Virus record (IMG/VR): IMGVR_UViG_3300023178_000083
Span: 1 to 46,523 of that record
DNA length: 46,523 nt
Source of the DNA: a virus
Strand: one strand, 5' to 3'
The notes under the pieces are model-generated. The model worked only from the letters and a program-made list of their open reading frames with translations. It ran no database searches and was not told the origin of the DNA. The translations under genes and the position numbers were made by a program. Shown here one piece after another: positions 188-38,494 of the stretch (its first letter is position 1; every line of letters starts with the position of its first letter).

Positions 188-268
188 ATGCGACTTACTA
201 AAAGACAACTCAAAAGAATTATTCGGGAAGAGTATTCACGACTCAAGCGTCGTGGACTCATCCGAGAG
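188..268 (+). repeat. Long-form tag, copy 1
   Basis: Codons 1-27 of the tagged protein. The first 24 residues are the same as in the copies at 37796 and 38186, although many codons differ, so conservation is at the protein level. Confidence 0.8.
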
Positions 269-523
269 ATGGCAGGCGGCCCAGTCACGGTCACCTTCGA
301 GGATTACGAAAATGGTGGAGAGTTCACTTGCACGCTCGATCCAAATCTGTATAGTGCAATCATGAGCGAGACAGACGAAGAAGAACAGATGTACTTGATG
401 CAAGACTTGTACACCATGTGTGAAGAAGAAGCAGGCGCAGCCGGCGTCATGCTCGGTGCACCTTTAAGTTGCAGCTGTCCTGAATGTTGGTCATTGATTC
501 AAAAAGCTGCATCATATTTTTAG
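188..523 (+). CDS. Tagged small protein (long-form N-terminal tag)
   Basis: A 111-residue protein. Residues 1-27 are a strongly basic, amphipathic segment (MRLTKRQLKRIIREE, then YSRLKRRGLIRE) that recurs almost unchanged at 37796 and 38186. After the I-R-E tripeptide at 25-27 the sequence changes abruptly to an acidic, Cys-containing domain (CTLDP, MCEEE, SCSCPECW) with no family I recognise. The start is supported by TAGGAG seven bases upstream. I infer a capsid-directed protein whose basic leader is removed at the (I/L)-x-E site; no function is known for the mature part. Confidence 0.8.
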   Translation: MRLTKRQLKRIIREEYSRLKRRGLIREMAGGPVTVTFEDYENGGEFTCTLDPNLYSAIMSETDEEEQMYLMQDLYTMCEEEAGAAGVMLGAPLSCSCPECWSLIQKAASYF

Positions 524-541
524 ATTCTTTCGTAATTAATT

Positions 542-580
542 TTGTAAAACCAACCGCCTCCGAGTACGTTATATACATAA
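542..580 (+). promoter_or_regulatory. Probable promoter for the recombinase gene
   Basis: TTGTAA at 542-547 matches the -35 used at several other gaps here. The best -10 is unclear: TACGTT at 565-570 gives a 17 bp gap, TATATA at 570-575 gives 22. The TTATATACATAA segment also occurs in the leader at 46129. Confidence 0.45.
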
Positions 581-595
581 CCAAAGGAGGCTATA

Positions 596-1831
596 ATGGC
601 TAAGAAAAAGAAAACAACAAAGACTAAAGCATCGTCAGGTACCGGTGACTTTACGAGTTCATTGATTAGTGCCTTGAACAAAGAACATGGTTCTCGTGTA
701 GCGTACAACCTCGCAGTAGAAGATTCGCCCACCCACGTCAATAGATGGATTAGCACTGGCTCAGACCAACTTGACTATATCGTAGCAGGTCGACCTGGTG
801 GCGGTCTTCCAGAAGGTCGCATTGTGGAAATCTTCGGCCCACCGTCTATTGGCAAATCCCACATAGCGATTCAGGTGTGTAAGGCTACACAAGAAAGCGG
901 TGGTATCGTGGTATATATCGATACAGAGAATGCAACGTCTGTAGAGAACCTTCAGTTACTCGGAGTCGACATCACTCAACGATTCGTATATGTCGACACA
1001 CATTGCACAGAAGAAGTATTATCAATTGCCGAGAAGACTATACTTAGAGCGAAGGAACTTGACAAAGATGTTCCGATCACCATCATCTGGGATTCTGTGG
1101 CGGCAACCTCGCCCAAGGATGAACTCTTAGGTGATTACGATAAGATGACGATTGGCTTGAATGCTCGTGTTATCTCAAAAGGTATGCGAAAGATCACGGG
1201 ACTGATCGCAAATGAGAAAGTGCTTCTTATCTGTCTCAATCAAATCAGAACAAAAATTGGAGTTATGTATGGAGATCCTACTACTACACCCGGAGGTAAG
1301 GCAATCCCTTTTCACTCATCTGTACGAATCAAACTGGACTCAGGCAAGCAAATCCTCGACAAACAAGGATCGCCCATTGGCATCAGGGTTATTGCGAAGA
1401 CTATTAAGAATAAAGTAGCTGCGCCATTCCGTCGTTGTGAGTTTGAGATTCACTTTGGCAAAGGTATCGTAGAACACGAATATGTCTTCGACCTTCTTCG
1501 CAAGTACTGTGCAGATAACGGACCTGTTGACTACGATGATGACCTTGCAGTTGAACTGTCTGGCACTGGTGCGTGGAAGACGATATGTCTTATCAAGAAG
1601 GATACAGGCGAAATCATCGAAGAGAAGAAGTTCTACAAACCTGAGTTCAATCAAATCTACAAAAGTCCTCAGTGGAACACCTATTGTATGAAGGTATTCA
1701 ACACGTGTTATGCCGAGTACATGGGTAGAGCTTTAGAGGATGCAGCAGAAATCAATCCCGAGTCATACGAAGAAGTGAGACAGATTGCTATGGACTTGAC
1801 CGGGCCTGACGACGCATTCCAAGATTTGTAA
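596..1831 (+). CDS. uvsX: UvsX/RecA-like recombinase
   Basis: Strand-exchange ATPase that would coat single-stranded DNA for recombination-dependent replication and repair. The 411-residue length suits phage UvsX. A Lys-rich leader is followed by the RecA core: Walker A GPPSIGKS at about 81-88, VVYIDTENA, Walker B-like IIWDSVAA with Asp near 166, and the LNQIRTK-GDPTTTPGG DNA-binding-loop region. The C-terminus is acidic, as in RecA/UvsX. The start is fixed by AAAGGAGG 583-590. The gene is the first of a replication block (exonuclease and helicase follow) and is bounded downstream by a hairpin. Bacterial RecA is a less likely reading because the flanking loops are divergent. Confidence 0.9.
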   Translation: MAKKKKTTKTKASSGTGDFTSSLISALNKEHGSRVAYNLAVEDSPTHVNRWISTGSDQLDYIVAGRPGGGLPEGRIVEIFGPPSIGKSHIAIQVCKATQESGGIVVYIDTENATSVENLQLLGVDITQRFVYVDTHCTEEVLSIAEKTILRAKELDKDVPITIIWDSVAATSPKDELLGDYDKMTIGLNARVISKGMRKITGLIANEKVLLICLNQIRTKIGVMYGDPTTTPGGKAIPFHSSVRIKLDSGKQILDKQGSPIGIRVIAKTIKNKVAAPFRRCEFEIHFGKGIVEHEYVFDLLRKYCADNGPVDYDDDLAVELSGTGAWKTICLIKKDTGEIIEEKKFYKPEFNQIYKSPQWNTYCMKVFNTCYAEYMGRALEDAAEINPESYEEVRQIAMDLTGPDDAFQDL

Positions 1832-1849
1832 TCCTTTGGTTAGGAAAGG

Positions 1850-1879
1850 TTGTAAAACCTGAGGGTACACCGGTATAAT
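1850..1879 (+). promoter_or_regulatory. Sigma70-like promoter inside a terminator
   Basis: TTGTAA (1850-1855), 18 bp gap, TATAAT (1874-1879). The -10 lies in the loop of the hairpin 1861-1893, so transcription would begin at about 1886, within the right arm. Confidence 0.65.
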
Positions 1880-1897
1880 GCTAGTGTACCCTCTTTT
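1861..1897 (+). terminator. Terminator hairpin after the recombinase gene
   Basis: GAGGGTACAC (1861-1870) pairs perfectly with GTGTACCCTC (1884-1893) and is followed by TTTT. It would stop read-through from the recombinase gene while the promoter in its loop starts the exonuclease mRNA. Confidence 0.65.
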
Positions 1898-1920
1898 CAT
1901 TTTCACACACAGGAGTCTCT

Positions 1921-2892
1921 ATGACAACACGCGGACCAGTACTTCTTATCGATGCTTACAACATCTTTGCCAAGAACTACATTGTAAATCCTTCACTTTC
2001 ATCTAATGGCGAACCCATCGGTGGTGCCACTGGCTTTATCAAATCACTTGGCGTCCTTGCCGACACCCATCGACCATCCGAAATTATTGTATGCTGGGAG
2101 GGCGGCGGAGCCAAACGAAGACGTGATCTCCTGCCGACTTACAAAGCAGGTCGTAAACCACTTCGGCTCAACCGATCAGAACTGTACAAGAAGGATCTGG
2201 ACTCGCCAGAAAACTTTATGTGGCAGGTTGCGTTGGCATGTCGGATGCTCGAACAACTTCCTATCAAACAAATGTATGTGGATGACTGCGAGGCCGACGA
2301 TCTTATTGGTTGGTTCTGCAGGCACCGTTTGCGAGACGACGAAAGACAAATTGTTATCTGTTCTGCTGACCAAGACATGCATCAATTGCTTCGCCCTGGT
2401 GTTATTCAGTACAACGCAAAGAAGACAATAACTCACGAAGATGTCGTAGCCAAATACGGTATCACTCCAGAAAACTTTGTAACAGCTCGTGCATTTATCG
2501 GAGATAAATCGGATCGTATCAATGGTATCAAAGGCGTTGGTTTCAAAACTCTGGCACGCAAATTCCCGCAACTTGGCGAAGAGTCATTTGTTTCAATTGA
2601 CGACATACTTACAGAATGCAAGTTAAGGAATAGTCAAAAGAAAATGAAATTATACGAATCGATCCTCGCCGAACCCGATACAGCCAAACTCAACTGGCGA
2701 CTCATGTATCTGGACATCAGTAATCTCAGTGCCGAGCATGTAAAACAACTGAATTACCGATATGATAATGCACAAGTAGGCCGGAATAAATTTCAGTTTA
2801 TCAAGACTATGGTACAAGAAGGACTACACGTCCCGGGCCATATCAATGCTGACTTAGTCTGGCTTCGCTTATCATCAATAGAACAGGAGTAA
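1921..2892 (+). CDS. 5'-3' exonuclease (FEN/T4 RNase H-like)
   Basis: Flap/5'-3' exonuclease that would remove Okazaki-fragment RNA primers or resect ends. The 323 residues fit the PIN/FEN fold of T4 Rnh and the PolI N-domain: LLIDAYNIF near residue 8, then LPTYKAGRK, the acidic metal cluster DDCEADDLIGWF, VICSADQDMHQLL, and the helix-hairpin-helix DNA-binding stretch GDKSDRINGIKGVGFKTLA. All the acidic cluster positions visible by eye are present. ACAGGAGTCTCT lies before the ATG. It is followed after two bases by the helicase gene, so the two are probably cotranscribed. Confidence 0.88.
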   Translation: MTTRGPVLLIDAYNIFAKNYIVNPSLSSNGEPIGGATGFIKSLGVLADTHRPSEIIVCWEGGGAKRRRDLLPTYKAGRKPLRLNRSELYKKDLDSPENFMWQVALACRMLEQLPIKQMYVDDCEADDLIGWFCRHRLRDDERQIVICSADQDMHQLLRPGVIQYNAKKTITHEDVVAKYGITPENFVTARAFIGDKSDRINGIKGVGFKTLARKFPQLGEESFVSIDDILTECKLRNSQKKMKLYESILAEPDTAKLNWRLMYLDISNLSAEHVKQLNYRYDNAQVGRNKFQFIKTMVQEGLHVPGHINADLVWLRLSSIEQE

Positions 2893-2894
2893 AA

Positions 2895-4286
2895 ATGTCA
2901 AACCTAGCAATCAAGGAGACGGGTCCCGCGTTGTTTCAACAATACGGGAAAGCTTTCCAAGAGAAGATCTTCCAAGGTCTTGCAATCGATAAAGATTGGG
3001 CACAGCAGATGCACGAAGTGATGCGTCCTCATTATTTTGAACTTAAGTATCTTCAATACTTGTGCGAAAAATATTTCGAATACTTCGACAACTATCGTTG
3101 TTTTCCCACAATGCAACTTCTCATCCAAATGGTTGGATCAGAATTAACCGGTGAAGGAAGCGATGGTATTTTAAGAAATCAAATCGTACAGTTTATTCAT
3201 CGCATGCGAGGCAACCCTCATCCAGAAGATCTTCCTTACGTGAAGGACAAAGCACTTGACTTTTGTAAACGTCAAGCATTCAAAGATGCGTTGACCACCG
3301 CTGTTGAATTGGTACAAGGTGACAAGTTCGAATCAGTCGTAGATCTTATGAAGAAAGCAGTATCTGTTGGCATGCCTCATTCCGTAGGTCACGATTTCTT
3401 TGAAGACATTGAGGCTCGTTTCCAAGAGATTCAAAGAATTACGACTCCAACTGGATTAGATTTCTTAGATGCGAAAGACATTCTAGATGGCGGACTAGGT
3501 CGTGGTGAACTTGGGGTGGTCGTTGCTCCAACTGGTTGTGGTAAATCACACTGGCTCGTACAAGTAGGTGCGGCTGCCTTGAAACAAGGAAGAACTGTAG
3601 TTCATTACACGTTCGAATTGAGCGAAGTGTTGGTCGGTAAACGATATGATGCGAATCTTACGAATATATCGGTGAATGATCTTATTGAAAATAAAGATCG
3701 AGTTAAAGATTTTTACGAAGACAACGAAATGGGTAATCTTATCATCAAGTACTACCCCACGAGGACCGCATCTGTGAATACCATTCGGAATCATCTTGAA
3801 AAACTTAAGTTTCGAGGACATATTCCTTCACTCGTCATTATCGACTATGCAGATGTGATGCGATCCACTAAAGCGTATGAAGCGTTAAGGCACGAACTTA
3901 TGTTAATCTACGAAGAGCTACGACAACTAGCGGGTGACTTCAACGTACCTGTTTGGACAGCTTCTCAATCAAACCGTGCGGGTGCCAACGCAGATATGGT
4001 AGGACTTGAAAACATGGGCGAAGCCTATGGTAAAGCACAGGTGAGTGATTTCGTTCTCGGTCTCTCTCGTAAACCCGAAGAGAAAGACAAAGGTTATGGA
4101 AGGTTATTTGTTGCAAAGAATCGATCCGGTCGTGATGGAATGCAGTTCCACGTGAAGATAGACACCGCAAGGTCTAAGTTCGCTAAGATGGACATGCAAG
4201 AAGTTGCAGATATGGATCCAAAAAATATAATGAAGAAGACATGGAATGAAGTCCAAAAAGCTAAGAAGGAGCTAGACAATGAGTAA
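2895..4286 (+). CDS. Replicative DNA helicase, DnaB/T4 gp41 family
   Basis: Hexameric 5'-3' fork helicase. The N-terminal 150 or so residues are helical (primase-binding type). The RecA-like motor carries Walker A APTGCGKS at about 211-218, Walker B LVIIDYADVM, and WTASQSNRAG in the H3 region. The 463-residue size suits gp41/DnaB. ACAGGAGTAAAA precedes the ATG. The 3' end overlaps the reductase gene by eight bases, tying fork progress and dNTP supply into one transcript. I see no separate primase in the window, so one should lie elsewhere or be supplied by the host. Confidence 0.88.
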   Translation: MSNLAIKETGPALFQQYGKAFQEKIFQGLAIDKDWAQQMHEVMRPHYFELKYLQYLCEKYFEYFDNYRCFPTMQLLIQMVGSELTGEGSDGILRNQIVQFIHRMRGNPHPEDLPYVKDKALDFCKRQAFKDALTTAVELVQGDKFESVVDLMKKAVSVGMPHSVGHDFFEDIEARFQEIQRITTPTGLDFLDAKDILDGGLGRGELGVVVAPTGCGKSHWLVQVGAAALKQGRTVVHYTFELSEVLVGKRYDANLTNISVNDLIENKDRVKDFYEDNEMGNLIIKYYPTRTASVNTIRNHLEKLKFRGHIPSLVIIDYADVMRSTKAYEALRHELMLIYEELRQLAGDFNVPVWTASQSNRAGANADMVGLENMGEAYGKAQVSDFVLGLSRKPEEKDKGYGRLFVAKNRSGRDGMQFHVKIDTARSKFAKMDMQEVADMDPKNIMKKTWNEVQKAKKELDNE

Positions 4287-6753: not shown

Positions 6754-6783
6754 TCTGAAAAATAAATTAAAGTTTTTACTCCT

Positions 6784-6813
6784 AACGGCGGCTCTTACGA
6801 GTCGTCGTTTTTT
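6784..6813 (+). terminator. Terminator after nrdJ, T-tract shared with the next promoter
   Basis: AACGGCGGCTC (6784-6794) pairs with GAGTCGTCGTT (6799-6809), with two G-U pairs and a TTAC loop, followed by TTTTTT. The end of the T run forms the start of the next -35 box (TTGTAA 6812-6817). Confidence 0.7.
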
Positions 6814-6840
6814 GTAAAATCTGGCTGAACAGAGTATAGT
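6812..6840 (+). promoter_or_regulatory. Sigma70-like promoter for the clpP-like gene
   Basis: TTGTAA (6812-6817), 17 bp, TATAGT (6835-6840), followed by AAAGGAG before the ATG at 6886. Confidence 0.65.
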
Positions 6841-6885
6841 AATAATACAACACTACTACACAATAACTAACCCAAAGGAGCATAT

Positions 6886-7503: not shown

Positions 7504-7513
7504 ACTTCTTCTG

Positions 7514-7519
7514 TATAAT
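7514..7519 (+). promoter_or_regulatory. Possible -10 box before the Dps-like gene
   Basis: TATAAT at 7514-7519 in the 45-base gap, without a convincing -35 box. TTTTGGAGAAAG then precedes the ATG at 7549. Confidence 0.3.
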
Positions 7520-7548
7520 TAGAATGGAGTTTATTTTGGAGAAAGTCT

Positions 7549-8439: not shown

Positions 8440-8657
8440 TGAACAAACGACAATTAAGAAAAACACTGAGAAGAGTAATCAACGAAGCCATGAAATTAGG
8501 CTGGGGTTCTGGCAGCGTACAAGCTGACTATTCTGATCACCTCCTAGAAGGAACGATCATTGCCATGCAACAAGGACTTTCAGAAGCAGAAGCTCGCGCT
8601 TTGGGCCAAAGATCTATCGAAGCTGGCATCCAAGAATACAACCGGTTGAATCGATAA
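8439..8657 (+). CDS. Tagged small protein
   Basis: A 72-residue protein starting in a TAATG overlap with the preceding stop. Residues 1-16 are a shortened tag (MNKRQLRKTLRRVINE), ending in I-N-E before Ala17. The mature part would be about 56 residues (GWGSGSVQADYSDHLLEGT...), helical with many Ala and Glu. No family recognised. It belongs to the same transcript as the flanking tagged genes. Confidence 0.75.
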   Translation: MNKRQLRKTLRRVINEAMKLGWGSGSVQADYSDHLLEGTIIAMQQGLSEAEARALGQRSIEAGIQEYNRLNR

Positions 8658-8677
8658 GCAGCTAGTGGAGCATGCAG

Positions 8678-9145: not shown

Positions 9146-9157
9146 ACGGAAATAGAC

Positions 9158-10527: not shown

Positions 10528-10534
10528 ATAAGTT

Positions 10535-26373: not shown

Positions 26374-27870
26374 ATGTTAATTAGTCGCATACATCGAAGT
26401 ATGAATAGAGTCTTAGAGGGCATTGATAGATGCGATCCACAATTAATTTTGGAAGCTTCAAAAGAGTTCGAAGGGGCCGCAGAAGAATTAAAGAAAAATA
26501 TGGAAGCATTCGTTAATCTCGGAAAACCTTTCATACCGATGTCTGCTTTCTTTAGTATGATCGACGTTTGGTTGGATGATCTTAAGAAAGTAGACATGTC
26601 AAAAATCAGTGATGAGTATAGTTTCAAAGATCACGTAAAGATGTTGAAAAGTCAAGAAGATGAATCACCCGAGCGTGCTATCTCGAAAGCAGCTACTGAG
26701 TATCCTATATACGTCAATGCATTGAAGAACGGGATCATGGCAATCGCGAAATGGGCGGAACAATTCCCAGAAGTGTTCTCCGTTGGGAAGAATGGCATCG
26801 TATTTCAAAAACAATTTGGAGACATCGTATCTGCGAAGAATCCGGAACTAAAGATAAAGGACATGTGTGGTGCCGACCAAATCGGTATTCTCAAAGCGAT
26901 GTCTGCTGCTGCAAATGAGGAAGAAATAAAAGAGACTTTCAAAAGCATTTGGCTACCCGAAGGTACCGAAGCAGAAAAGGAAGATGAAGCATGGACCAAG
27001 TTCACGGGTGGATTCGAAAAATTAGGCCAAGCAGGCAAAGCAGCGTATGATACCGCGAAGAAAGAGATTAATGATACGGAACCTCCTGACGAAGTTAAGA
27101 GTGCAGGAAATAAGAGTGGTGGTTTTCTAAAATCACTTCTGTCAAGTGTAATTGGAGAAGGTCTCGATGACAAGATGGATATTTCCCTTGTGACAGAACA
27201 GCTTCTTGGCCAGCAGCTCGAAGGTGACCAAGGCCTGTTCGCTTTGACATTTCCGGAACTGCAGGAGCTCATCACCAAAGTTTTAGAGTTCGTCGGTGCA
27301 GCATCTGCGAAATCCGCTGCAGCTCTTCAGGCTGTCAACAAACAGACGGAAGAAACGATGCAACCAGAGGAGAATCAGGGGAAACTTTGGGATCTTTTCA
27401 ACGATTCAGAACTCAAGATGGGAAAAGACGATATCGCATTGGTCGGTGCTGCGCTCGAGGAAGTTGGTTGGGACAAAAATAAAGATTGGAACTCATTGGA
27501 CAAGACAAAAGTGAAAGAATCCTTGATGAAAGTCTTCAAAAATGACGAAGCAAAGACGAAAGCTGTGATGGAAGAACTGTACGGACCAGAAGAAAACGAA
27601 TCAGTCGAAGAGCTACAGGATTATGTATCAGATATAGATGCATCCGATGATGTAGAGACTGCACTTCAAAAGCTGATAGATAGAATGGATTCTAACAAGG
27701 AAAAATACGAAGACATGTCCGAGCAAGAAATCGAAGAGGTCGTCGAAGAAGCTCTTCCAGATGAGGATGTTCCGGAGGAGATTGCGTCTCGGTTTTGGAA
27801 TGCTTTCGGAGACACTAATGAAAACCTTTATCGTCGATGGGGACGAATTGCAGGTATCTTAAAAGATTAA
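26374..27870 (+). CDS. Large acidic helical protein with the C-terminal LAG motif
   Basis: 498 residues, almost wholly helical and acidic, with Glu/Asp-rich stretches (ESVEELQDYVSDIDASDD, EQEIEEVVEEALPDEDV). It ends NENLYRRWGRIAGILKD, a motif shared with the proteins at 34364 and 35600. No enzyme motif is visible. Its composition resembles phage scaffold or prohead-core proteins; I infer a virion-assembly role from this, from the shared C-terminus and from the neighbours. Confidence 0.7.
   Translation: MLISRIHRSMNRVLEGIDRCDPQLILEASKEFEGAAEELKKNMEAFVNLGKPFIPMSAFFSMIDVWLDDLKKVDMSKISDEYSFKDHVKMLKSQEDESPERAISKAATEYPIYVNALKNGIMAIAKWAEQFPEVFSVGKNGIVFQKQFGDIVSAKNPELKIKDMCGADQIGILKAMSAAANEEEIKETFKSIWLPEGTEAEKEDEAWTKFTGGFEKLGQAGKAAYDTAKKEINDTEPPDEVKSAGNKSGGFLKSLLSSVIGEGLDDKMDISLVTEQLLGQQLEGDQGLFALTFPELQELITKVLEFVGAASAKSAAALQAVNKQTEETMQPEENQGKLWDLFNDSELKMGKDDIALVGAALEEVGWDKNKDWNSLDKTKVKESLMKVFKNDEAKTKAVMEELYGPEENESVEELQDYVSDIDASDDVETALQKLIDRMDSNKEKYEDMSEQEIEEVVEEALPDEDVPEEIASRFWNAFGDTNENLYRRWGRIAGILKD
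27817..27867 (+). repeat. C-terminal RW-LAG motif, copy 1
   Basis: Encodes NENLYRRWGRIAGILKD at the extreme C-terminus. Compare 35540-35593 and 36383-36433. Confidence 0.65.
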
Positions 27871-27892
27871 TTAAAGTATAATGGAGTATATG

Positions 27893-28372
27893 ATGAAACG
27901 TAATGAACGAAGAATGGTGCAACTAATAAAAGAGGAATACTCTCGTCGTATCCTTGAGTTGTTTAGAGAAAATGTCAAAGACATTTTCGAAGCCGACATG
28001 TTCGATAAAGAAGGGAATCAACTTCTTTCTCAGGGTTTGAAAGTGCGACACAAAGGAAGTGGCTACGAATACACAGTTGACCATGTTGAAGGCGATGGGG
28101 AAAATGCAACAGTGTTTCTTCGACATCCGGAGGCGCCTCGATTCAAGCCCGGCTCTAGCGAGGCGCAATTGACCGAAGCTGACGAAGATGAAGAATCACG
28201 TATATCTGTGGATCAAGTGGATCTTGCAAAAGTATCTGATGACGAAACGCTGGACATGCAAGTTGCTGCCGATTCGACACAAGATCCGATGGATACGATG
28301 AAGCAGATGGGAAAAGGTTCTCTCCTCAAGATTACGAAATCAGAATTTGAAAAAGAATACGAGGTGAAATAA
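27893..28372 (+). CDS. Small acidic protein with a divergent tag
   Basis: 159 residues from the ATG at 27893; ATGs at 27881 and 27890 are closer to TGGAG (27882-27886) or overlap it. The N-terminus MKRNERRMVQLIKEEYSRR resembles the long-form tag (shared [RK]-E-E-Y-S-R) and contains I-K-E and I-L-E sites; another, I-F-E before Ala, follows at FEADMF. The middle (GLKVRHKGSGYEYTVDHVEGDGENATVFLR) looks like a small beta barrel. TATAAT at 27875 may serve as a -10. No known family. Confidence 0.65.
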   Translation: MKRNERRMVQLIKEEYSRRILELFRENVKDIFEADMFDKEGNQLLSQGLKVRHKGSGYEYTVDHVEGDGENATVFLRHPEAPRFKPGSSEAQLTEADEDEESRISVDQVDLAKVSDDETLDMQVAADSTQDPMDTMKQMGKGSLLKITKSEFEKEYEVK

Positions 28373-29049
28373 TGAACGACAAAACTTTGAAAGAAATAAT
28401 TCAAGAAGAACTTGGACTTAAGAAACAATCTTTGAAAGAAAGTTATGTGACTCAAGCGAAGAAATACGACCTTTCCACAGAGCTTCTTTCTGACAAGAAC
28501 AAAGCAGCGCACCAGGAGCTCCTTGAGAAATACGTAGAGTCTTTGAATGAAGTGAGTACAAAACTCGATACTGCCGACCTTGAGGCGGCCAATCCAAATT
28601 TTTGTGATTTTCGTAGTCTTAAAATTGACGAAGTTTACAATATGAATGCAGCTTACTTGCATGCGTTGTTTTTCGAGAACATCTCAGATCAAAGATCTAT
28701 TATCACGATGGACTCGATGGCATTTATGAGATTGGAAAGAGATTTCGGATCATTCGATAAATGGCAAAAGGAATTTGTTGCTTGTGCATTAAGTGCGAGG
28801 AACGGATGGGCTGTGACTGTATTCTCTCACATGCTTAAAAGATACATCAACGTTGTTGTCGATTTACATTCGCAACAAATTCCTATTGGGTGCACCCCAA
28901 TCATCGTTATGGATTGCTGGGAACATAGTTACTATCGTGACTATCTTTCAGATCGAAAGACATACGTATATGGCATGATGAAAGAATTCGATTGGAATCA
29001 AATCGAAGAAAGATTCAAGAAAGCCGAGAAGATCGCTAAAATCGTATAG
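28372..29049 (+). CDS. Fe/Mn superoxide dismutase-like protein with N-terminal leader
   Basis: 225 residues. After a helical leader (MNDKTLKEIIQEELGLKKQ, with I-Q-E and L-K-E sites) comes a clear Fe/Mn SOD fold. The four metal ligands by position are His47 (AAHQELLEKYVESLN), His97 (NAAYLHALFFENI), Asp181 and His185 (IVMDCWEHSYYRDY, the DxWEHxYY signature). Ligand spacings match bacterial SodB. FGSFDKWQKEF and the SARNGWAV block are also present. It would convert superoxide to peroxide and oxygen if active; some usual active-site residues such as the NHxxYW context are altered, so activity is not certain. Its position among candidate virion proteins suggests packaging. Confidence 0.8.
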   Translation: MNDKTLKEIIQEELGLKKQSLKESYVTQAKKYDLSTELLSDKNKAAHQELLEKYVESLNEVSTKLDTADLEAANPNFCDFRSLKIDEVYNMNAAYLHALFFENISDQRSIITMDSMAFMRLERDFGSFDKWQKEFVACALSARNGWAVTVFSHMLKRYINVVVDLHSQQIPIGCTPIIVMDCWEHSYYRDYLSDRKTYVYGMMKEFDWNQIEERFKKAEKIAKIV

Positions 29050-29059: not shown

Positions 29060-29845
29060 ATGGATTGGGAATTGCGCAGATTATTGGAACATGCCGGCAT
29101 ACTTCGTAGAGGTACTCCTGCACGATTACTTCTAGAAGAAGAAGACGATGATGCAGGAGGAGATGATCTCGGAGGAGACGACGATCCATTCGGTGGTGGA
29201 GATGACTCCGATCCTTTTGGAGACGATGGTGGAGACGATGCTGAAGGTGACGGTGACGGAGAATCTAATAGAGAGCCTCCTGAAGAATTGTCTCCAGAAG
29301 ACATTGGAAATTACGGTTCTCCTCGATTCTTAGATATGGAAATGAATCTTAAGAACATGTACAACAATTCTGTCACGTCAGCGTCGGCTGGTGCACAACA
29401 TCTGGAAGTGTATCCCGGACAAGCGATGCAAGAAGAGCCAGATGATACTCCTGCCAAAAGTGAAGAACCAGAAGATGACGAAAAGAACGAATCATTTTAC
29501 CGATATGGGAATCGTAGGGATAAATGGCTAATTGCTGAAGCCAATCGTTTACTTTTAGAAGCAGAAGACGAAGGCAGCGCGGCAGACGAATTTGACATGG
29601 AAAGATTCGCAACAGAATTAGCAAATTATTTGGATACTGTCACACAGACGCAGGATGTCGAAGCAGGTATCTTTAATGCTGCAAGACAGATGATCTTAAA
29701 TAACCACGGGCCTGAGACTGAAAAAGAGTTCACGGCCATGTTAGACTCGGTTTCAGATGGAAAGTGGAGTTTTATCGAAGATGGTTTTGATGACACACCA
29801 GAGACCCCCGTGGCTGTGGGTGCATCTGGTGATGGTGGAGCGTAA
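29060..29845 (+). CDS. Very acidic, disordered protein with LxE sites
   Basis: 261 residues. A short basic leader (MDWELRRLLEHAGILRRG) ends at RLLLEE, then about 45 residues are nearly all Asp, Gly, Glu and Ser. Residues 140-170 hold NESFYRYGNRRDKW, related to the LAG-motif region, followed by WLIAEANRLLLEAED, which contains I-A-E|A, the same cleavage context as in the T4 internal-protein leader, and L-L-E|A. Likely a core or internal head protein; the acidic part may mimic DNA. AGGAGAAAAACA precedes the ATG. Confidence 0.7.
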   Translation: MDWELRRLLEHAGILRRGTPARLLLEEEDDDAGGDDLGGDDDPFGGGDDSDPFGDDGGDDAEGDGDGESNREPPEELSPEDIGNYGSPRFLDMEMNLKNMYNNSVTSASAGAQHLEVYPGQAMQEEPDDTPAKSEEPEDDEKNESFYRYGNRRDKWLIAEANRLLLEAEDEGSAADEFDMERFATELANYLDTVTQTQDVEAGIFNAARQMILNNHGPETEKEFTAMLDSVSDGKWSFIEDGFDDTPETPVAVGASGDGGA

Positions 29846-30578: not shown

Positions 30579-31319
30579 ATGAGCACAATGCCTCCAGCAG
30601 AAAAAGAATATATACTGAATGCCATGCCCGGTTTTGACGATCATCTCTTAAAAGTATTATGGGAAACGATGACCAAGAATGGAGGGCTACAAACGATGGA
30701 CCCTGATGTTCTGAAAGCATTCTACGATGAGTTCGAAAAAAGACCCGGGTTACTCGAATCAATGGCGAACGAATCGAAAAGGAGAAACAAAATGAAATTA
30801 ACAGAATCACAATTACGAAAAGCTATTCGAAAAACAATCGTTGAAGCAAATAATGACCGACATAATCACGTTCACAACGGAATACAGTTGCAGCATGGAG
30901 ATTTGGATTCAGCAGATACAGATTTCCACGATTACGGCGCCGTTTCACATAGGATGATCTCGAACGGTGTTTGGCCAAAAATGTCGACAGAGCTGAAAAA
31001 TGCCGGTGATTGGCAATTTTACGATTGTGGCGACGGATACAGATTTATTCACCATTGCATGGCATGCAAAGACGAAGAGGGTCGAATCATGATGGCTATC
31101 TTCTGCAGAGATAGACAAAATTCTTCTAATGCGACTGCAACGTCTTATGATTGTTATGTTTTAGACTGCGTTCTCATCGAAGAAAAGGGAAAAGGTAAAG
31201 ATCCAAGTTCTTGGTGGTCAGATTTTGCTCCTAAAGGCGAATACTGTGTGAACACTCGGCAGATTGTAGATACATTAGAAGAAGCGTACGATCAATACAT
31301 AGCAAGGTGGGTAGAATAA
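30579..31319 (+). CDS. Helical domain fused to an internal tag and a C-domain
   Basis: 246 residues. Residues 1-70 are a helical domain (YILNAMPGFDDHLLKVLWE, DPDVLKAFYDEFEKRPGLLESM). At residue 72 a complete short tag starts (MKLTESQLRKAIR, then KTIVEA), then an alpha/beta domain with WQFYDCGDGYRFIHHCMACKDEEG. As at 7549, the linker codes for a strong ribosome binding site just before the internal ATG. No family recognised. Confidence 0.7.
   Translation: MSTMPPAEKEYILNAMPGFDDHLLKVLWETMTKNGGLQTMDPDVLKAFYDEFEKRPGLLESMANESKRRNKMKLTESQLRKAIRKTIVEANNDRHNHVHNGIQLQHGDLDSADTDFHDYGAVSHRMISNGVWPKMSTELKNAGDWQFYDCGDGYRFIHHCMACKDEEGRIMMAIFCRDRQNSSNATATSYDCYVLDCVLIEEKGKGKDPSSWWSDFAPKGEYCVNTRQIVDTLEEAYDQYIARWVE
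30792..31319 (+). CDS. Internal-start tagged protein
   Basis: ATG 30792 follows AAAAGGAGAAACAAA and opens a 175-residue product that begins with the short tag; I-V-E falls at residues 16-18 before Ala19. This is the second in-frame tag cassette in the window. Either the full-length fusion, this shorter form, or both may be made. Confidence 0.55.
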   Translation: MKLTESQLRKAIRKTIVEANNDRHNHVHNGIQLQHGDLDSADTDFHDYGAVSHRMISNGVWPKMSTELKNAGDWQFYDCGDGYRFIHHCMACKDEEGRIMMAIFCRDRQNSSNATATSYDCYVLDCVLIEEKGKGKDPSSWWSDFAPKGEYCVNTRQIVDTLEEAYDQYIARWVE

Positions 31320-31645
31320 TGAAACTAACAGAATCACATTTGCGACGGGCCATTCGAAAGAGTATACTCGAAATGAGTACTTCGGGCATTCAATTAACTC
31401 GAAAAGAAAGAGAATTGGAAGAGAAAGCAGGTGCAATGATGGCGGATGTCGCGAGCAATCCACAGCTTGCTGCTCGAAACCTCACAAATGATTTCCGTTG
31501 GGGAGATTCTCGTCACTTGGAAACTTGGATGGAAAAATGTGATCAAGGATACGTTTGTTCGAACCCAGAAATTGATGCTGTACTTAAAGCAGCGTATGAA
31601 ATAATGTGGAAAGAAGGCAGAATCGACAACATAAGAGGACTATAA
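31319..31645 (+). CDS. Tagged small protein
   Basis: 108 residues; ATG in a TAATG overlap with the preceding stop (the frame is open from a GTG at 31307, which is less likely). Tag MKLTESHLRRAIRKSILE ends with I-L-E at 16-18 before Met19. The mature part has a basic-acidic helix (LTRKERELEEKAG) and DFRWGDSRHLETWMEKCDQGY. No family recognised. Confidence 0.72.
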   Translation: MKLTESHLRRAIRKSILEMSTSGIQLTRKERELEEKAGAMMADVASNPQLAARNLTNDFRWGDSRHLETWMEKCDQGYVCSNPEIDAVLKAAYEIMWKEGRIDNIRGL

Positions 31646-33750: not shown

Positions 33751-34364
33751 AAAAGAAAAAATTACTCGGTTTCGATTTAGACGAACTTTTGAATGAATCA
33801 TTAGCCCATCTATTCGAAGTTTCAACTGATGAATCAACAGCGAATATGAAAGAGAAATTGGCTCAAGAAGAAGCAAAGGCAAAGGCGAAACAACGAAAGA
33901 AAGTTTATTCTAAGAAAAAAGAAGACAATGCTGGTGACGAAGGAGCAGAAGCTCCGACTAAACCAGTCAAGGTGAAACAAGAAAAACTTCCCGACATCAA
34001 TGCCCAGGCAATCGCAGATAAACTAAATGCGATTCGAGCAGGAAAATCTTTAAAAGACAAAGATACGATGTCTTCCCTTAAGGCCTACTTCGAGAAATTA
34101 AATGGACCGGAAAGAATCGCACTGTTCGCATTTCTTGCAGGGCTAGAAAAAGTTCTAGGTGATGGTTCTAAAGATGTGAAGACGCCACACTCGAAACCAT
34201 TTAACATTGATATGGATCAGGAAAAACCAACAGAGAAAAAAGTGCAGCCTGCAGGTACTAAAGATCCTTCTCTTAACGACGCTGGTGAAACTCCCATCGT
34301 GGTAGGAGAATCTGCGAACAAATCAAACATACTTAAAGTTATCAAATTAAATAGGAGATTGTGA
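33747..34364 (+). CDS. Lys/Glu-rich protein, possible core protein
   Basis: 205 residues; CAGGAGAAAGAAGT precedes the ATG. The leader MKKKKLLGFDLDELLNESL carries L-N-E|S, and L-F-E|V follows, both (I/L)-x-E sites. A Lys/Ala/Glu-rich stretch (EEAKAKAKQRKKVYSKKKED) and a compact domain (MSSLKAYFEKLNGPERIALF) follow. Probably disordered at both ends. No family recognised. Confidence 0.62.
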   Translation: MKKKKLLGFDLDELLNESLAHLFEVSTDESTANMKEKLAQEEAKAKAKQRKKVYSKKKEDNAGDEGAEAPTKPVKVKQEKLPDINAQAIADKLNAIRAGKSLKDKDTMSSLKAYFEKLNGPERIALFAFLAGLEKVLGDGSKDVKTPHSKPFNIDMDQEKPTEKKVQPAGTKDPSLNDAGETPIVVGESANKSNILKVIKLNRRL

Positions 34365-35596
34365 TGGCAAGAAATATTAGAATAAACGAATTGAAATCAT
34401 TGGTCAAGTCTACGATCAATGAGATCAAATCAGAAACAGTTAGAATGCACGAAACCAAGATGTCTTCTAAAGAAAGAAAAAAAGTAATTGACCGACTGGT
34501 TTCCGAAACTGTAAAAGCTGTTCTTTTAGAAGCTGAAATCGAAGGTGACGATGCAGAAACGGGTGCTAATTTTGATCCAAGCGATCAGAAAAACCACCCT
34601 TACGACAGATTTTTAGCAAATCTTTTCGGCCCAGGATTGGACGATGCTGGCGCACAGATTGACCTAACCAATGCGAAAAATGTTATCAAACAATTCGTGA
34701 AGAAGATGGTTCCAGAAGAAGACGCTGGTGGCGGGCAACCTTTTGGGGCACTTGTCACAGGCGGCGATGGTTCTGCCGAAGATAAACAAATCACTTTGAA
34801 AGAAGATTCTCCAGCTGGTGCTGCGTCTGGGTTAAAACCTTCACAATTGGAAGTATTCTTGCCACAATCCATCGATGGATACCTTACGAGAGGCGTGGAT
34901 TTCACAAAAGACATCATGAATGGAGCGTACGATTCGAAAAATTCTATCTTCTTCTCAGAAGACGGATACATCATCGATGGCCATCACAGATGTTCTTCAA
35001 TCAATGGTCTTAATCCTGCATGTACAGTTAAAGGTATCATGATGACCGCGAAGATCGAAACTTGCCTCAAGCTGTTGAACTTGATCCTTGAAGCTTACGA
35101 AAACGGTTCGGCAAAGGTTGCAAGTGGTGACGCAGCCAAATCGATCTGGAACAATGCTCCAACTCCTGAATCGGTGAAAGCGACTCTTTTAGAAGTGACT
35201 CAACGAGAAGGAAAATATCCTCCTCACCCTCCTTGGTCTGCAAAAGAAAACGACGGTGATCCTGAGAAAGCACTTCAAGTGTTTGTCAATGCTATGGGCG
35301 ATTTGGGTCACGAATCCGCTGGTGACGTTGATAAATTTTGTGAATCTGTCGCGACCAAATATTCACAATGGGCCAAACCCGAAGGTAAATTTGGAAAACG
35401 AGATCAGATGCCCCAGCTGGAAGACGAATGGACCGATGATTCCAATGTCCCAGAGAGTGAAAGAACTCTTAAGTATTCAGAATTTATCAAAGGCGGACTT
35501 GAAGGGGGTGAATTCGATTATGCACGAGCTCACAATTATAACGAATCTGTCGATCTTAAAAGATGGGAAAAACTAGCTGGTATTCTCAAGGACTAA
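34364..35596 (+). CDS. ParB/sulfiredoxin-like domain protein with the C-terminal LAG motif
   Basis: 410 residues; ATG 34364 is chosen over GTG 34361 for spacing to AGGAG and overlaps the previous stop. A basic helical leader (NELKSLVKSTINEIKSE) leads to AVLLEAEIEGDD with an L-L-E|A site. Residues 165-225 resemble a ParB/Srx fold: QLEVFLPQSIDGYL, IFFSEDGYIIDGHHRCSSI with DGHHR at about 205-209, the nucleotide-binding signature of that fold. The C-terminus is NESVDLKRWEKLAGILKD. Possible roles are a packaged NTPase or nuclease, or assembly; unproven. Confidence 0.68.
   Translation: MARNIRINELKSLVKSTINEIKSETVRMHETKMSSKERKKVIDRLVSETVKAVLLEAEIEGDDAETGANFDPSDQKNHPYDRFLANLFGPGLDDAGAQIDLTNAKNVIKQFVKKMVPEEDAGGGQPFGALVTGGDGSAEDKQITLKEDSPAGAASGLKPSQLEVFLPQSIDGYLTRGVDFTKDIMNGAYDSKNSIFFSEDGYIIDGHHRCSSINGLNPACTVKGIMMTAKIETCLKLLNLILEAYENGSAKVASGDAAKSIWNNAPTPESVKATLLEVTQREGKYPPHPPWSAKENDGDPEKALQVFVNAMGDLGHESAGDVDKFCESVATKYSQWAKPEGKFGKRDQMPQLEDEWTDDSNVPESERTLKYSEFIKGGLEGGEFDYARAHNYNESVDLKRWEKLAGILKD
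35540..35593 (+). repeat. C-terminal RW-LAG motif, copy 2
   Basis: Encodes NESVDLKRWEKLAGILKD just before the stop. Confidence 0.7.
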
Positions 35597-35599
35597 AGT

Positions 35600-36436
35600 A
35601 TGGCCGAATCTGCAGCCAAAGCCAGTTTTCGAAACAAGCTAGAAAATAGTGGATACGTTCCAACCGAAAACTACCGAAACTCAAAGGAAGATGTCAAGAA
35701 GAAAGGCAACAAGGGTACAATAAACCCGCTTTCCACGACATCTCCTGTTATCTCTCATTATCAAGATGACATAGAGGGTCGTAGGAAAATAAAGCGTGCT
35801 TGGCGAGAAACTTACGAATCAGAAGGAAGCCGTTGGGTGGGTTCAGTTTCGAAGGTCTTCTGGCTCGGGTGGGCACAAGATATTGATTATGAAATGCTTC
35901 CCGTCGAAGTAGACGAATTCTTAGAACGATCTTCTGGAACGAACGGTGATGAATTTTCCTGTGTTGGATATCCCGGTGGAGTAGGATTTGTTGATGGTTA
36001 TTCACTAGCTTTCGGTTTTGTAGTTGAAGGAGAGCCCACTTATGCTGTGTCCTCTGACGCGTGGTCACAGGAAGGATGGAGGATCCATCAGCGTGTAAGA
36101 GATTGGTATGCATCTGTTGGTGCCACAGGAGTTCCAAGAAGACCGATGTCATTATCCATTGATGACCTCGTTAATCACGTTGTCTTCACCCAAGAGGACA
36201 CCGTGGATGGAGTCATCGGAGAAGTTATCATTGATCATTGGTCAGTCACTGGGATTGTTGTAAATGATCGAGTCATTCGATCTGTTTTAGACATCGATGA
36301 AGAATTCAACAAAGAAGCTCTCGATTGGCTCGCAAACCTTGAGACAATCTATTCTAACTTGGACATCATTCGGATTGGCAAAGTCAACGATTCCATCGAC
36401 TTAAGTCGATGGCAAGTTTTGGCAGGATTAAAATAG
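35600..36436 (+). CDS. Unknown protein with the C-terminal LAG motif
   Basis: 278 residues beginning three bases after the preceding stop. A basic, disordered N-terminus (KGNKGTINPLSTTSP) leads to an alpha/beta domain (WVGSVSKVFWLGWAQDID, EVIIDHWSVTGIVVNDRVI). It ends VNDSIDLSRWQVLAGLK, the third copy of the LAG motif. No family recognised; I group it with the virion-core candidates. Confidence 0.68.
   Translation: MAESAAKASFRNKLENSGYVPTENYRNSKEDVKKKGNKGTINPLSTTSPVISHYQDDIEGRRKIKRAWRETYESEGSRWVGSVSKVFWLGWAQDIDYEMLPVEVDEFLERSSGTNGDEFSCVGYPGGVGFVDGYSLAFGFVVEGEPTYAVSSDAWSQEGWRIHQRVRDWYASVGATGVPRRPMSLSIDDLVNHVVFTQEDTVDGVIGEVIIDHWSVTGIVVNDRVIRSVLDIDEEFNKEALDWLANLETIYSNLDIIRIGKVNDSIDLSRWQVLAGLK
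36383..36433 (+). repeat. C-terminal RW-LAG motif, copy 3
   Basis: Encodes VNDSIDLSRWQVLAGLK at the extreme C-terminus. Confidence 0.65.
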
Positions 36437-36454: not shown

Positions 36455-36486
36455 TGTACAAATTCTCCTGTGAATGAATTAAATTA
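36455..36486 (+). promoter_or_regulatory. TGTACAAA-class promoter/operator, copy 2
   Basis: GTGCACGTC precedes TGTACAAA (36455-36462); 13 bases later GAATTAAATTA (36476-36486). Confidence 0.65.
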
Positions 36487-36515: not shown

Positions 36516-36521
36516 TTTTTT

Positions 36522-37709
36522 ATGGGCGGTGCTCAAAAATCAATGCTACATCCTTACGAGGATCACACTACAACATTCGGTGAACTCATCGGGTTCGCTA
36601 AAACATTCGCACGAGGTGGTACTTTCAACGAGAAAGTCGATGGTTGCAACCTCACATGGCGATTCAGAGATGACACATTCTATCTCGCACGCAACTACGA
36701 ACACTTTCGTTCAGGTGGCCAATCTGTCGAAGACTATCGTGCATACTTAAAAGGCCATCCTGCAGAAGCACAGTTCACTCGTGCACTCGACAGGCTCGAA
36801 CGCATGCGTAATGTCCTCAAAGCTACTCAGTTCTTTGACGACTATGACGACGGTGTATGGGCCAACATGGAAGTGATCGATCAGAAAGCACCACAAATGC
36901 TACGATATGATATAGATTGTTTTGTTATTCACAACCTATGTAGATTCGTTGAGAAGCCAAAGCCACACACTGAGATTGTGAAACCCACGTCTATGAGTTT
37001 AAATCGATTCTCATCGATTCTGTGCCTATCAGGCGTTCGAGTTCTTCACGCTCCTACTGTTACGATAGATCCGATGCATAAGACACACTTCTACCATTTT
37101 CGTGACTACATCATGTCTTGCATGAACTTCTACAATCTTGGACTCGAATCATCCCTACAAGATTACATCTACGCACACATCGTGGACATCTTCGAGCCAG
37201 AGAGTGTGTCAGAAGAACATGCGCAGATGATCGCTGAAAACGTCACAGGCAAAGGCAAGCATGACATACGCAAGATCCGCGAAGGATACGATACAGGTAC
37301 GCAAGAGCTTATCAACAAGATTGGTCTATCGTCCAATAGAATCAAAACGATTAATGGTGCGTTGGAACCGATCAAAGGCGCATGGCTATCTTTCGGTGCG
37401 AGAAGGCTCGAAGGTATTAAGTCCTCTCTTATCAACGATGCAGAAGCAGCAATCGAAAGGCTCGATGACATTATAGATTTCAATATAGACGTTGTCAACG
37501 AACGAAGATTGGAAAAGCCTACAATCTACAATGGTTTTCACGATCAACTCGAAAAGTTTGTATCATACAATACAGAGCCTCAAATTATCGAAGGCTTCGT
37601 ATTCGAGACCGATAGATACATCGTCAAGCTCACCGGTGCATTCCAAGCGTTAAACCGAGTATGCGGCACTGCAAGATACCAATTTGGCGAGTTATTCGAA
37701 GAAGAGTAG
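36522..37709 (+). CDS. RNA/DNA ligase-like nucleotidyltransferase
   Basis: 395 residues of the covalent nucleotidyltransferase superfamily. Motif I is NEKVDGCNLTW with Lys38 as the expected AMP acceptor (KxDG), VWANMEVID is the motif III region, EGFVFETD is motif IV (EGxV) and YIVKLTG is motif V. Ligases of this kind seal nicks or repair cut tRNA/RNA; which substrate is used cannot be read. The middle 170 residues are unassigned. Its leader carries the masking inverted repeat, so it may be timed to a particular stage. Confidence 0.72.
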   Translation: MGGAQKSMLHPYEDHTTTFGELIGFAKTFARGGTFNEKVDGCNLTWRFRDDTFYLARNYEHFRSGGQSVEDYRAYLKGHPAEAQFTRALDRLERMRNVLKATQFFDDYDDGVWANMEVIDQKAPQMLRYDIDCFVIHNLCRFVEKPKPHTEIVKPTSMSLNRFSSILCLSGVRVLHAPTVTIDPMHKTHFYHFRDYIMSCMNFYNLGLESSLQDYIYAHIVDIFEPESVSEEHAQMIAENVTGKGKHDIRKIREGYDTGTQELINKIGLSSNRIKTINGALEPIKGAWLSFGARRLEGIKSSLINDAEAAIERLDDIIDFNIDVVNERRLEKPTIYNGFHDQLEKFVSYNTEPQIIEGFVFETDRYIVKLTGAFQALNRVCGTARYQFGELFEEE

Positions 37710-37734
37710 ACATTTTCATCCTTCTTAGTATAAT
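37707..37734 (+). promoter_or_regulatory. Promoter before the tagged pair
   Basis: TAGACA (37707-37712), 16 bp, TATAAT (37729-37734). Confidence 0.45.
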
Positions 37735-37738
37735 TAAG

Positions 37739-37775
37739 GCCGTGGGATATGGCAGAGTCTGTGCCCACGGCTTAT
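37739..37775 (+). terminator. Hairpin after the ligase-like gene
   Basis: GCCGTGGG (37739-37746) pairs with CCCACGGC (37764-37771), then TTATT. It begins five bases after a TATAAT box, so mRNA from that promoter would start inside the left arm. Confidence 0.5.
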
Positions 37776-37795
37776 TCATTTAAGGAGAAAATAAA

Positions 37796-37876
37796 ATGAG
37801 ACTTACAAAACGACAATTGAAGCGAATCATTCGTGAAGAGTATTCCCGACTAAAGAGACGGGGACTCCTTCGTGAA
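37796..37876 (+). repeat. Long-form tag, copy 2
   Basis: Codons 1-27; same first 24 residues as copies 1 and 3 but with many synonymous differences. Confidence 0.8.
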
Positions 37877-38173
37877 GATGATATGTCACAAATGGTAGAT
37901 GACATGAGACTAGCTGGTATGAAACTTCCTATTGACCAAGAACCAGAGATTATCGGTTATCTCGAAGGTTTGATTGGTGCTGATCCTACAGAGATCAGAA
38001 AGGCAGGATATTCCATTGATGAATCAGAATTAGGAGAGGCACGAGCGTGGTTAGCGGCGAACCCTGACCCTGATTTGGAAGATGTTTTGATGCAATTGGG
38101 CCAATCATACATGCAGCAAATGAACTTAGAGTCCCGTCGAAGACGTAGAACACTTTCTAATCGCAGATACTAA
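37796..38173 (+). CDS. Tagged small protein (long-form tag)
   Basis: 125 residues after AAGGAGAAAATAAA. Long-form tag, with L-R-E at residues 25-27 before Asp28. The mature part is acidic and helical (DDMSQMVDDMRLAGMKLP) and ends in an Arg-rich tail (ESRRRRRTLSNRRY). No family recognised. The next gene has the same leader, so the pair probably arose by duplication. Confidence 0.78.
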   Translation: MRLTKRQLKRIIREEYSRLKRRGLLREDDMSQMVDDMRLAGMKLPIDQEPEIIGYLEGLIGADPTEIRKAGYSIDESELGEARAWLAANPDPDLEDVLMQLGQSYMQQMNLESRRRRRTLSNRRY

Positions 38174-38185
38174 GGAGAAAATAAA

Positions 38186-38266
38186 ATGAGACTTACAAAA
38201 AGACAATTAAAAAGAATTATTCGAGAAGAATACTCACGCTTGAAGCGCAGAGGATTAATCAAAGAA
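38186..38266 (+). repeat. Long-form tag, copy 3
   Basis: Codons 1-27; see copies 1 and 2. Confidence 0.8.
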
Positions 38267-38494
38267 TCTATGGCTGATGAAATCGAAGATTACATCGAGC
38301 AAGTTTCTGAATCACTTTACCACGGTGACGAAATGTCCTATATGGAGTTAGAAGATGAGCTCTCGTCGATCATGCCAAACTTTGACTCAGGCTTGTTAGG
38401 AAATGCTATCGACATTATGGTTCAAAGAGGTCAAATCGAAGCACGAACAGGTCGAGATGGACTTGGTGTTTTCATGATGCCATTCTCTGAGTAA
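38186..38494 (+). CDS. Tagged small protein (long-form tag)
   Basis: 102 residues after TAAGGAGAAAATAAA. Long-form tag ending I-K-E at 25-27 before Ser28. The mature part is acidic and ends in a winged-helix-like run (ELEDELSSIMPNFDSGLLG, NAIDIMVQRGQIEARTGRDG, LGVFM), which could bind DNA. The gene converges on the minus-strand NMNAT-like gene with a one-base gap. Confidence 0.78.
   Translation: MRLTKRQLKRIIREEYSRLKRRGLIKESMADEIEDYIEQVSESLYHGDEMSYMELEDELSSIMPNFDSGLLGNAIDIMVQRGQIEARTGRDGLGVFMMPFSE

Follow-up and report, generated by a model that had tools for sequence, protein, structure and literature searches.

Short N-terminal leaders on many unrelated proteins of an uncultured phage, including a superoxide dismutase, as probable capsid-targeting signals

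Gene content of the window

The IMG/VR virus record IMGVR_UViG_3300023178_000083, analysed here over its whole length of 46.5 kb (positions 1 to 46,523, hereafter the window), encodes a series of otherwise unrelated proteins that begin with a similar basic amphipathic helix ending in isoleucine or leucine, any residue and glutamate ((I/L)-x-E). These N-terminal tags are weighed here as candidate capsid-targeting leaders. Colinearity with the window was found in two much longer phage contigs from the environment, G001 at 167 kb and G002 at 289 kb, and, at greater distance, in G003 and G004; genes in these relatives were called with a simple custom script. The window's gene content (UvsX/RecA, DnaB, ribonucleotide reductase, a ClpP-like protein) is a replication and metabolism set, and no capsid, scaffold or S77 protease gene was found among the 33 of about 70 called genes that were sent to Pfam or PHROGs. 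Because the head operon with its S77 protease lies outside the fragment, relatives are required for testing the claim that tagged proteins are loaded into the capsid. INPHARED holds no close cultured phage: matches to the G001 capsid protein (2473 phage records by tblastn), to the window's superoxide dismutase (SOD; 18 phage records, none over more than 80% of its length) and to the window's polymerase were all below 60% identity.

A family of N-terminal tags

A sequence-only reading of the window had described ten tagged starts, and every start, tag and (I/L)-x-E position that it quoted proved exact on re-checking. The closing glutamate is residue 18 in the proteins at 8020, 8678, 30792, 31319 and 31645, residue 27 in those at 188, 37796 and 38186, residue 16 at 8439 and residue 12 at 10535. 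Of 200,000 shuffles of residues 14-28 in the five E18 copies, none placed all five tripeptides at 16-18. A 14-residue scoring matrix, whose training set was 47 tag 14-mers from records other than the window, recovered seven of the ten starts at 25-38 bits (188, 8020, 30792, 31319, 31645, 37796 and 38186). The next-best start in the window reached 11.8 bits, and none of its 21,777 non-start positions reached 16 bits. Seven of the ten thus stand far above background; the starts at 8678 and 8439 are weak, and that at 10535 was not recovered. In a control, 14 matches arose when a shift of one or two residues was permitted, and the five of them that were listed are the tags themselves seen early; with no shift the count was zero. 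A looser DNA pattern of the tag had no match in the window. The tags are listed below.

188..268 (+): long N-terminal tag of 27 residues ending in IRE at E27; 111-residue protein at 188-523; 38.1 bits
37796..37876 (+): long N-terminal tag of 27 residues ending in LRE at E27; 125-residue protein at 37796-38173; 38.1 bits
38186..38266 (+): long N-terminal tag of 27 residues ending in IKE at E27; 102-residue protein at 38186-38494; 38.1 bits
8020..8073 (+): 18-residue tag ending in ILE before A; protein at 8020-8439; 30.2 bits; Shine-Dalgarno AGGAG; in frame with the ferritin/Dps-like open reading frame (ORF) at 7549
30792..30845 (+): 18-residue tag ending in IVE before A; protein at 30792-31319; 31.0 bits; in frame inside the ORF 30579-31319
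31319..31372 (+): 18-residue tag ending in ILE before M; 108-residue protein; 30.0 bits
31645..31698 (+): 18-residue tag ending in LFE before F; 480-residue protein; 25.3 bits
8678..8731 (+): weaker tag ending in ILE before H, at E18; 155-residue protein; 11.8 bits
8439..8486 (+): short tag-like start ending in INE before A; 72-residue protein; 8.4 bits
10535..10570 (+): short tag-like start ending in LRE before A; 123-residue protein; below 8 bits with the matrix, the motif of the sequence-only reading being its sole basis

Longer open frames (7549-8439 and 30579-31319) enclose the proteins at 8020 and 30792 in frame; each of the two proteins has a good Shine-Dalgarno sequence but may be fused with the upstream frame. 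Since no in-frame stop separates that frame from the tag, the ferritin/Dps-like protein called at 7549 through a weak match to PHROG 858 (E 0.0054) is possibly fused to the tagged protein. The ferritin/Dps-like gene of G001 closes with a stop and is followed by a separate tagged gene; in the window, therefore, either the stop has been lost or the tagged protein begins at its own ribosome-binding site.

Besides these ten, five window proteins overlooked by the sequence-only reading carry a leader that ends in hydrophobic-x-E and is kept in homologues: the SOD at 28372 and the proteins at 27890, 29060, 34364 and 39111.

28372..28440 (+): SOD leader of 23 residues ending in LKE before S; Glu kept in 69 of 69; a short helix and a loose linker outside the SOD fold in the structure model
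28441..29049 (+): SOD body, the proposed packaged cargo; PF02777 at 1.4e-20; model matches the Fe-SOD 1coj
27890..27991 (+): leader ending in IFE before A; 160-residue protein; L/I-x-E in the three full-length members of four aligned, by inspection
29060..29137 (+): leader ending in LLE before E; acidic 261-residue protein; LLE, LTE and LLE in three of three aligned, by inspection
34364..34507 (+): N-terminal leader with hydrophobic-x-E at E48; 410-residue protein of the DGHHR-motif family; all 15 aligned relatives keep E48
39111..39167 (+): leader ending in LLE before V; 428-residue protein; LLE, LNE and LLE in three of three aligned, by inspection

A superoxide dismutase with an invariant leader glutamate

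Judged by its C-terminal domain, its modelled fold and four presumed metal ligands, the protein at 28372-29049 is an Fe/Mn superoxide dismutase. Relatives were gathered by patterns inside the enzyme rather than at the leader junction, and the best 80 of 235 were kept; four of the 80 loci gave no open frame by the pattern, and the remaining 76 reduced to 68 unique proteins, or 69 with the window's own. Across these 69 the leader is 21-57 residues long and varies far more than the body (mean pairwise identity 0.21 versus 0.57), while its last residue is glutamate in every case. The next residue is A in 48, S in 19 and N in 2, and 68 of the 69 have L, I, V or M as the third residue back from the predicted cut. 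In an alignment of 50 sequences the leader glutamate is as invariant as H47, H97, D181 and H185, which we take to be the metal ligands from the alignment with 1coj and from general knowledge of the family; just after H47 the phage enzymes are shorter by one residue.

Bacterial homologues from genome contigs differ at precisely this place: none of the 28 has the leader glutamate, 21 show a gap at its column, and 17 start one to three columns after it, with starts chosen by script. The structure model has a short low-confidence helix at residues 3-13, a loop at 14-40 and the enzyme fold from residue 41, which puts the site within a linker. As far as sequence comparison can tell, the SOD leader with its invariant glutamate is the strongest single piece of evidence for removable leaders.

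A phage-type SOD with leader (65% identity) also occurs on contig NHDW01000006.1 (306 kb; locus L245), which is binned in a metagenome-assembled genome of Methylococcaceae. It is probably a phage contig within the bin and is no evidence on the host.

The tag family in relatives

Pattern scans of viral contigs for the tag returned 13 and 2 stretches. Tagged starts of at least 16 bits number 30 in G002, 22 in the 50-kb record G006, 12 in G001, 10 in G003 and 7 each in G004 and the window, all of these records except the window having contributed to the training of the matrix. The 139 unique tagged N-termini sit on highly diverse proteins, the 136 bodies (first 30 residues removed) falling into 110 clusters. 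As in the capsid targeting sequence (CTS) of phage T4, a short, putative N-terminal propeptide is common to otherwise unrelated proteins, and an L/I-x-E site closes it. Pfam gave no match for the 116 tagged proteins of at least 95 residues, and PHROGs gave five (two unnamed families).

The position of the site was examined in N-termini independent of the matrix. An original set of 43 held nine rows from training contigs, and the repeat test used the remaining 34, from 24 loci. A hydrophobic-x-E ends at residue 15-30 in 27 of them, against a shuffle mean of 14.3, and none of 1000 shuffles reached 27. The sites end at residue 18 (11 cases), 21 (8), 22 (7), 27 (3) and 15 (3), and never at 17, 20, 25 or 26, where 1.2 each would be expected. 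Eleven non-start matches in the SOD loci all lie within a few residues of a methionine, so that they are probably N-termini as well; the single non-start match in phage immuto lies within two residues of one.

The sequence-only reading had stated that similarity among tagged proteins stops at the glutamate, and the long copies bear this out. In 12 of them, picked by a protein pattern that fixes Glu27 and much of residues 1-20, mean pairwise identity is 0.69 at the eight free positions within 17-26, collapses to 0.30 at position 28 and averages 0.07 at 29-45. With the end left free, all 17 tags beginning KRQL..EEY carry an L/I-x-E, at 25-27 in 15 and at 20-22 in 2. The 31645 family has LFE, LRE or MTE at the tag end in all five aligned homologues. 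The hydrophobic-x-E site, whose loss in homologues was named by that reading as a refuting outcome, is conserved in homologues while the surrounding leader varies.

The tagged genes of G006 include about twenty small ones in a nearly unbroken tandem row near one end (2804-10701, locus L069), and similar rows are found in G002 (52-58 kb) and G001 (162-165 kb). These tandem rows look like cargo islands.

Protease, core genes and capsid

The sequence-only reading had suggested a search for a prohead protease of the T4 gp21 type. The search succeeded in relatives and failed in the window fragment. Of the 15 tag-bearing records found, 11 were searched, and five of these contain Peptidase_S77; so do all 21 SOD-bearing contigs of at least 140 kb among the best 80 of 235 relatives, G001 and G002 included. 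None of 14 control genomes matched. Downstream of the protease gene, G001, G002, G003, G005 and G008 have small genes, then a long gene at the place of the scaffold, then a gene for a gp23-like capsid protein. This order is also annotated in phage immuto and in T4; the scaffold and core genes of the relatives were assigned by position. These five contigs thus possess the head gene set of the T4 superfamily (gp23-type capsid, upstream scaffold, core and S77).

Near the protease, small head-core genes frequently start with the tag. With up to seven extra residues permitted before the tag, 18 of 33 loci have a matrix start of at least 12 bits in the stretch upstream of the capsid gene, versus 4 of 17 in an equal stretch downstream. 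Of 13 loci with a visible protease signature, eight have a tagged start between it and the capsid gene. One small core protein has a tag closing with ILIE, ILVE, IIIE, ILAE or VLLE in five of five cases. For the capsid protein itself, the best 80 of at least 599 relatives were examined: in 78 loci an [ILVM]-[RK]-E stands at a fixed position close to the N-terminus, and the two remaining loci have LNE slightly further along. This motif has the same form as the tag ends and, by analogy with T4, may be a cutting site.

A scaffold-like C-terminal tail

Three window proteins end in a second signal, RWxxLAG[IL] (once as RWxxIAGI), that the sequence-only reading had overlooked.

27835..27867 (+): C-terminal scaffold-like tail RWGRIAGILKD; protein at 26374-27870
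35561..35593 (+): C-terminal scaffold-like tail RWEKLAGILKD; protein at 34364-35596
36407..36433 (+): C-terminal scaffold-like tail RWQVLAGLK; protein at 35600-36436

The predicted head scaffold, encoded by the long gene before the capsid gene, ends in the same way: [RD][WM]xxLAG is found in 65 of 67 unique C-termini, the other two being near variants by eye (12 of the 80 capsid loci gave no scaffold end). Among cultured relatives, immuto and Mel-JY01 have the tail too, and RM378 has a reduced form of it. In the 80 SOD loci, none of which shows the capsid gene motif, the tail motif closes 29 frames, spread over 18 loci, against 0.4 expected from eight internal matches in 728,975 residues. A hydrophobic-x-E lies within 12 residues before the tail in 21 of the 23 unique tailed frames, and several tailed proteins carry an N-terminal leader too. 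One is the DGHHR-motif protein of the window (34364-35596), whose family keeps the RW and LAG of the tail in at least 90% of the alignment.

Pfam gave no match for 26 tailed proteins, and a viral-contig search with the 34364 protein returned no relative. A structure model of the latter was poor (mean pLDDT 55) and was set aside. A tailed protein at L145:12957-14624 aligns with the DGHHR family and contains, by eye, a P-loop-like stretch, GPPAAGKG; tailed cargo may accordingly include kinase-like domains.

Proposed mechanism and alternatives

Comparison of sequences among the window and its relatives shows a common tag, a conserved site at its end, a conserved tail and a protease in the relatives. 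The reading that best fits, and that is likely to be correct, is that the tags are removable capsid-targeting leaders: a core-joining helix or a scaffold tail would bring the protein into the prohead, an S77-type cut after hydrophobic-x-E would free it, and the cargo would be kept in the head. The basic amphipathic N-terminal helix would join a protein-only prohead core in the manner of the small core proteins that have the same N-terminus, while a second group of proteins would use the RWxxLAG[IL] tail in common with the scaffold, instead or additionally. After shell assembly the gp21-type (S77) protease would cut after hydrophobic-x-E, releasing the cargo from core or scaffold, and the mature cargo would stay inside the head until ejected with the DNA. 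Packaging, cleavage and ejection are presumed. The capsid-targeting proposal of the sequence-only reading gains support from the protease in relatives, the tagged head-core genes and the conserved site. A wider version, toward which we lean with less assurance, holds that a two-ended import code (core-type N-terminal tag and scaffold-type C-terminal tail, each released by the protease) loads dozens of fast-changing unrelated proteins, including a functional SOD, that would be injected at the start of infection.

Other explanations would account for part of the data. The helices could bind the prohead core and mostly stay uncut, with SOD, capsid and core proteins as the only true substrates and the L/I-x-E of the short tags as a part of the helix. 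The glutamates do lie mostly at residues 14, 18 and 21/22, roughly at helical spacing, and the residue after them is moderately biased (52 of 94); nevertheless, conservation drops to background directly past the glutamate in the E18, E19, E22 and E27 classes (in which the Glu itself is fixed by class definition), and the 31645 family keeps L/M-x-E in five of five homologues while the rest of its tag changes, which makes a largely uncut helix unlikely. The helix might instead be a signal for docking or sorting that has nothing to do with the head, directed for example to a ClpP-like protein or the host membrane and resembling the core proteins by convergence. That head-core proteins encoded ahead of the capsid gene are picked up by the same matrix, that capsid, SOD and core proteins have the site in common, and that the scaffold tail occurs on other leader-bearing proteins all speak against such a signal and leave it improbable, even though the phage encodes a ClpP-like protein, the tags are basic and amphipathic like many sorting helices, and Pfam is blank on the 116 tagged proteins. 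Least credible is a nucleic-acid element, such as a translation enhancer or recombination hot spot, that is translated incidentally: many copies follow a ribosome-binding site and all begin at a start codon, but homologues keep the glutamate across deep divergence, and codon differences among tag copies are mostly synonymous (664 versus 314 nonsynonymous, a tally biased by the selection of copies through a protein pattern), so that the protein rather than the DNA appears to be conserved.

A number of results weigh against removable capsid-targeting leaders. The three long copies in the window contain an additional I-x-E ending at residue 14, which gives each of them two candidate sites, and many other tag copies likewise have a second I-x-E ending there. 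In the short tags the glutamate is followed by A, G, S, T or N in 52 of 94 cases, and one of these residues stands at each of the five positions thereafter in 29-38 of 94, a looser preference than in the SODs. Among loci found through SOD or capsid, at least one tag of at least 16 bits occurs in 19 of 80 and 9 of 80, respectively; at most about 21 kb of each SOD locus was seen, and three SOD loci (L086, L087 and L139) belong to the training contigs G002, G001 and G004. None of five loci, comprising those of the cultured relatives immuto (in two pieces), RM378 and Mel-JY01 and the T4 head region, has a tagged start of at least 16 bits. As to the tail, it was not found in T4 gp22; hydrophobic-x-E precedes only 31 of the 67 scaffold ends and none of the window's three tails, which read TNE, YNE and VND. 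In the window fragment the Peptidase_S77 model found no match (this search had no positive control), and the head-operon proteins of G001 and G002 matched no gene of the window. Finally, the ClpP-like protein of the window additionally matches PHROGs of head maturation proteases, and because relatives encode both a ClpP-like gene and S77, the identity of the cutting enzyme is something that we infer.

Comparison with known systems

A C-terminal signal or a scaffold domain is also what brings foreign cargo into a shell in the case of encapsulin cargo peptides and of engineered P22 scaffold fusions. The tail described here is natural and viral, and has a possible protease site before it in 21 of 23 unique cases among the relatives.

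The closest likeness is to T4. Its internal proteins are directed to the core by propeptides, gp21 makes its cut behind L/I-x-E, and Alt is trimmed at its N-terminus as well as its C-terminus (PMC9026906, PMC5694885). The CTS-bearing proteins of T4 (IPI-III and Alt) resemble the tagged proteins in having a short N-terminal propeptide on diverse internal proteins, an L/I-x-E cut, predicted for the tagged proteins, and an S77 protease, found here in relatives (PMC9026906, PMC3012670, in the excerpts available), and the core, scaffold and capsid genes of T4 lie side by side as in the relatives. The differences are a tag of another sequence (MKTYQEFIAE in T4, as quoted in the sequence-only reading), the presence here of a scaffold-type C-terminal tail that T4 gp22 does not have, and numbers: four such T4 proteins are named in those excerpts (PMC9026906, PMC3012670), versus up to 30 tagged starts in a single 289-kb record here.

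The large phages SPN3US and phiKZ are similar in that many proteins are packaged and ejected and propeptides are removed by the prohead protease. Several of their propeptides exceed 100 residues, however, the motif is AxE rather than L/I-x-E, and the portions of the two papers at hand mention no shared short tag family (PMC5694885, PMC7411985). In phage P1 an N-terminal signal of DarB suffices for loading a reporter into the head, whereas BLAST finds no N-terminal sequence common to the Dar proteins, again as far as the available text extends (PMC9024508); the tag described here is a recognisable family.

The idea of a capsid targeting sequence is therefore an old one, already applied to T4 IPIII (PMC9026906) and P1 DarB (PMC9024508), and the principle is not new. 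What the data support as new is the scale on which tags occur, the additional signal at the C-terminus and the cargo, with SOD as a likely member; the system would be a much enlarged variant of the T4 CTS. Searches of open-licence PubMed Central full text with six spellings of the tag returned no paper, and the titles among the matches listed for phage superoxide dismutase phrases all concerned lumpy skin disease or related poxviruses. Among the papers listed for SOD in jumbo or T4-like phages, two mention superoxide dismutase once each. In what that collection shows of its papers, no description was found of the tag family, its C-terminal counterpart or SOD as cargo, and among the matches listed for immuto proteomics no title concerned its virion. 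At the sequence level, a tblastn search of 50,697 phage records with the 27-residue tag gave no match even at E 10; the low-complexity filter was active.

Neighbouring genes

The two long-tag genes at 37796-38494 are clustered with a gene for a conserved 395-residue protein (36522-37709), which has relatives in G001-G003 and adjoins both long-tag and leader-bearing genes, and with a reverse-strand gene (38496-39032) whose product appears nucleotidyltransferase-like by eye. Also identified by eye were a ClpS-like adaptor frame at 14579-14920, with a relative in G002, and a GroEL-type chaperonin-like frame at 41663-43291, with relatives in G001-G004. A viral chaperonin could have a role in capsid folding.

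Significance for large uncultured phages

Injected phage proteins act early, and T4 IPI shields the injected DNA from a restriction enzyme, as stated in the accessible part of PMC3012670. If the removable-leader reading is correct, the tag is a sequence label by which the proteins of large uncultured phages that travel in the head can be read from their genomes, and it would pick out, from the many unknown genes, a limited set of candidate early effectors, the tagged proteins being almost without matches (Pfam 0 of 116, PHROGs at most 5 of 116). The SOD with its leader offers a concrete and testable case. The C-terminal tail suggests that cargo may ride on the scaffold's own contact, as a natural counterpart of engineered scaffold fusions, and the two signals might find use in bringing proteins into phage heads. 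Many viral proteins would then be delivered together with the DNA, one of them an antioxidant enzyme.

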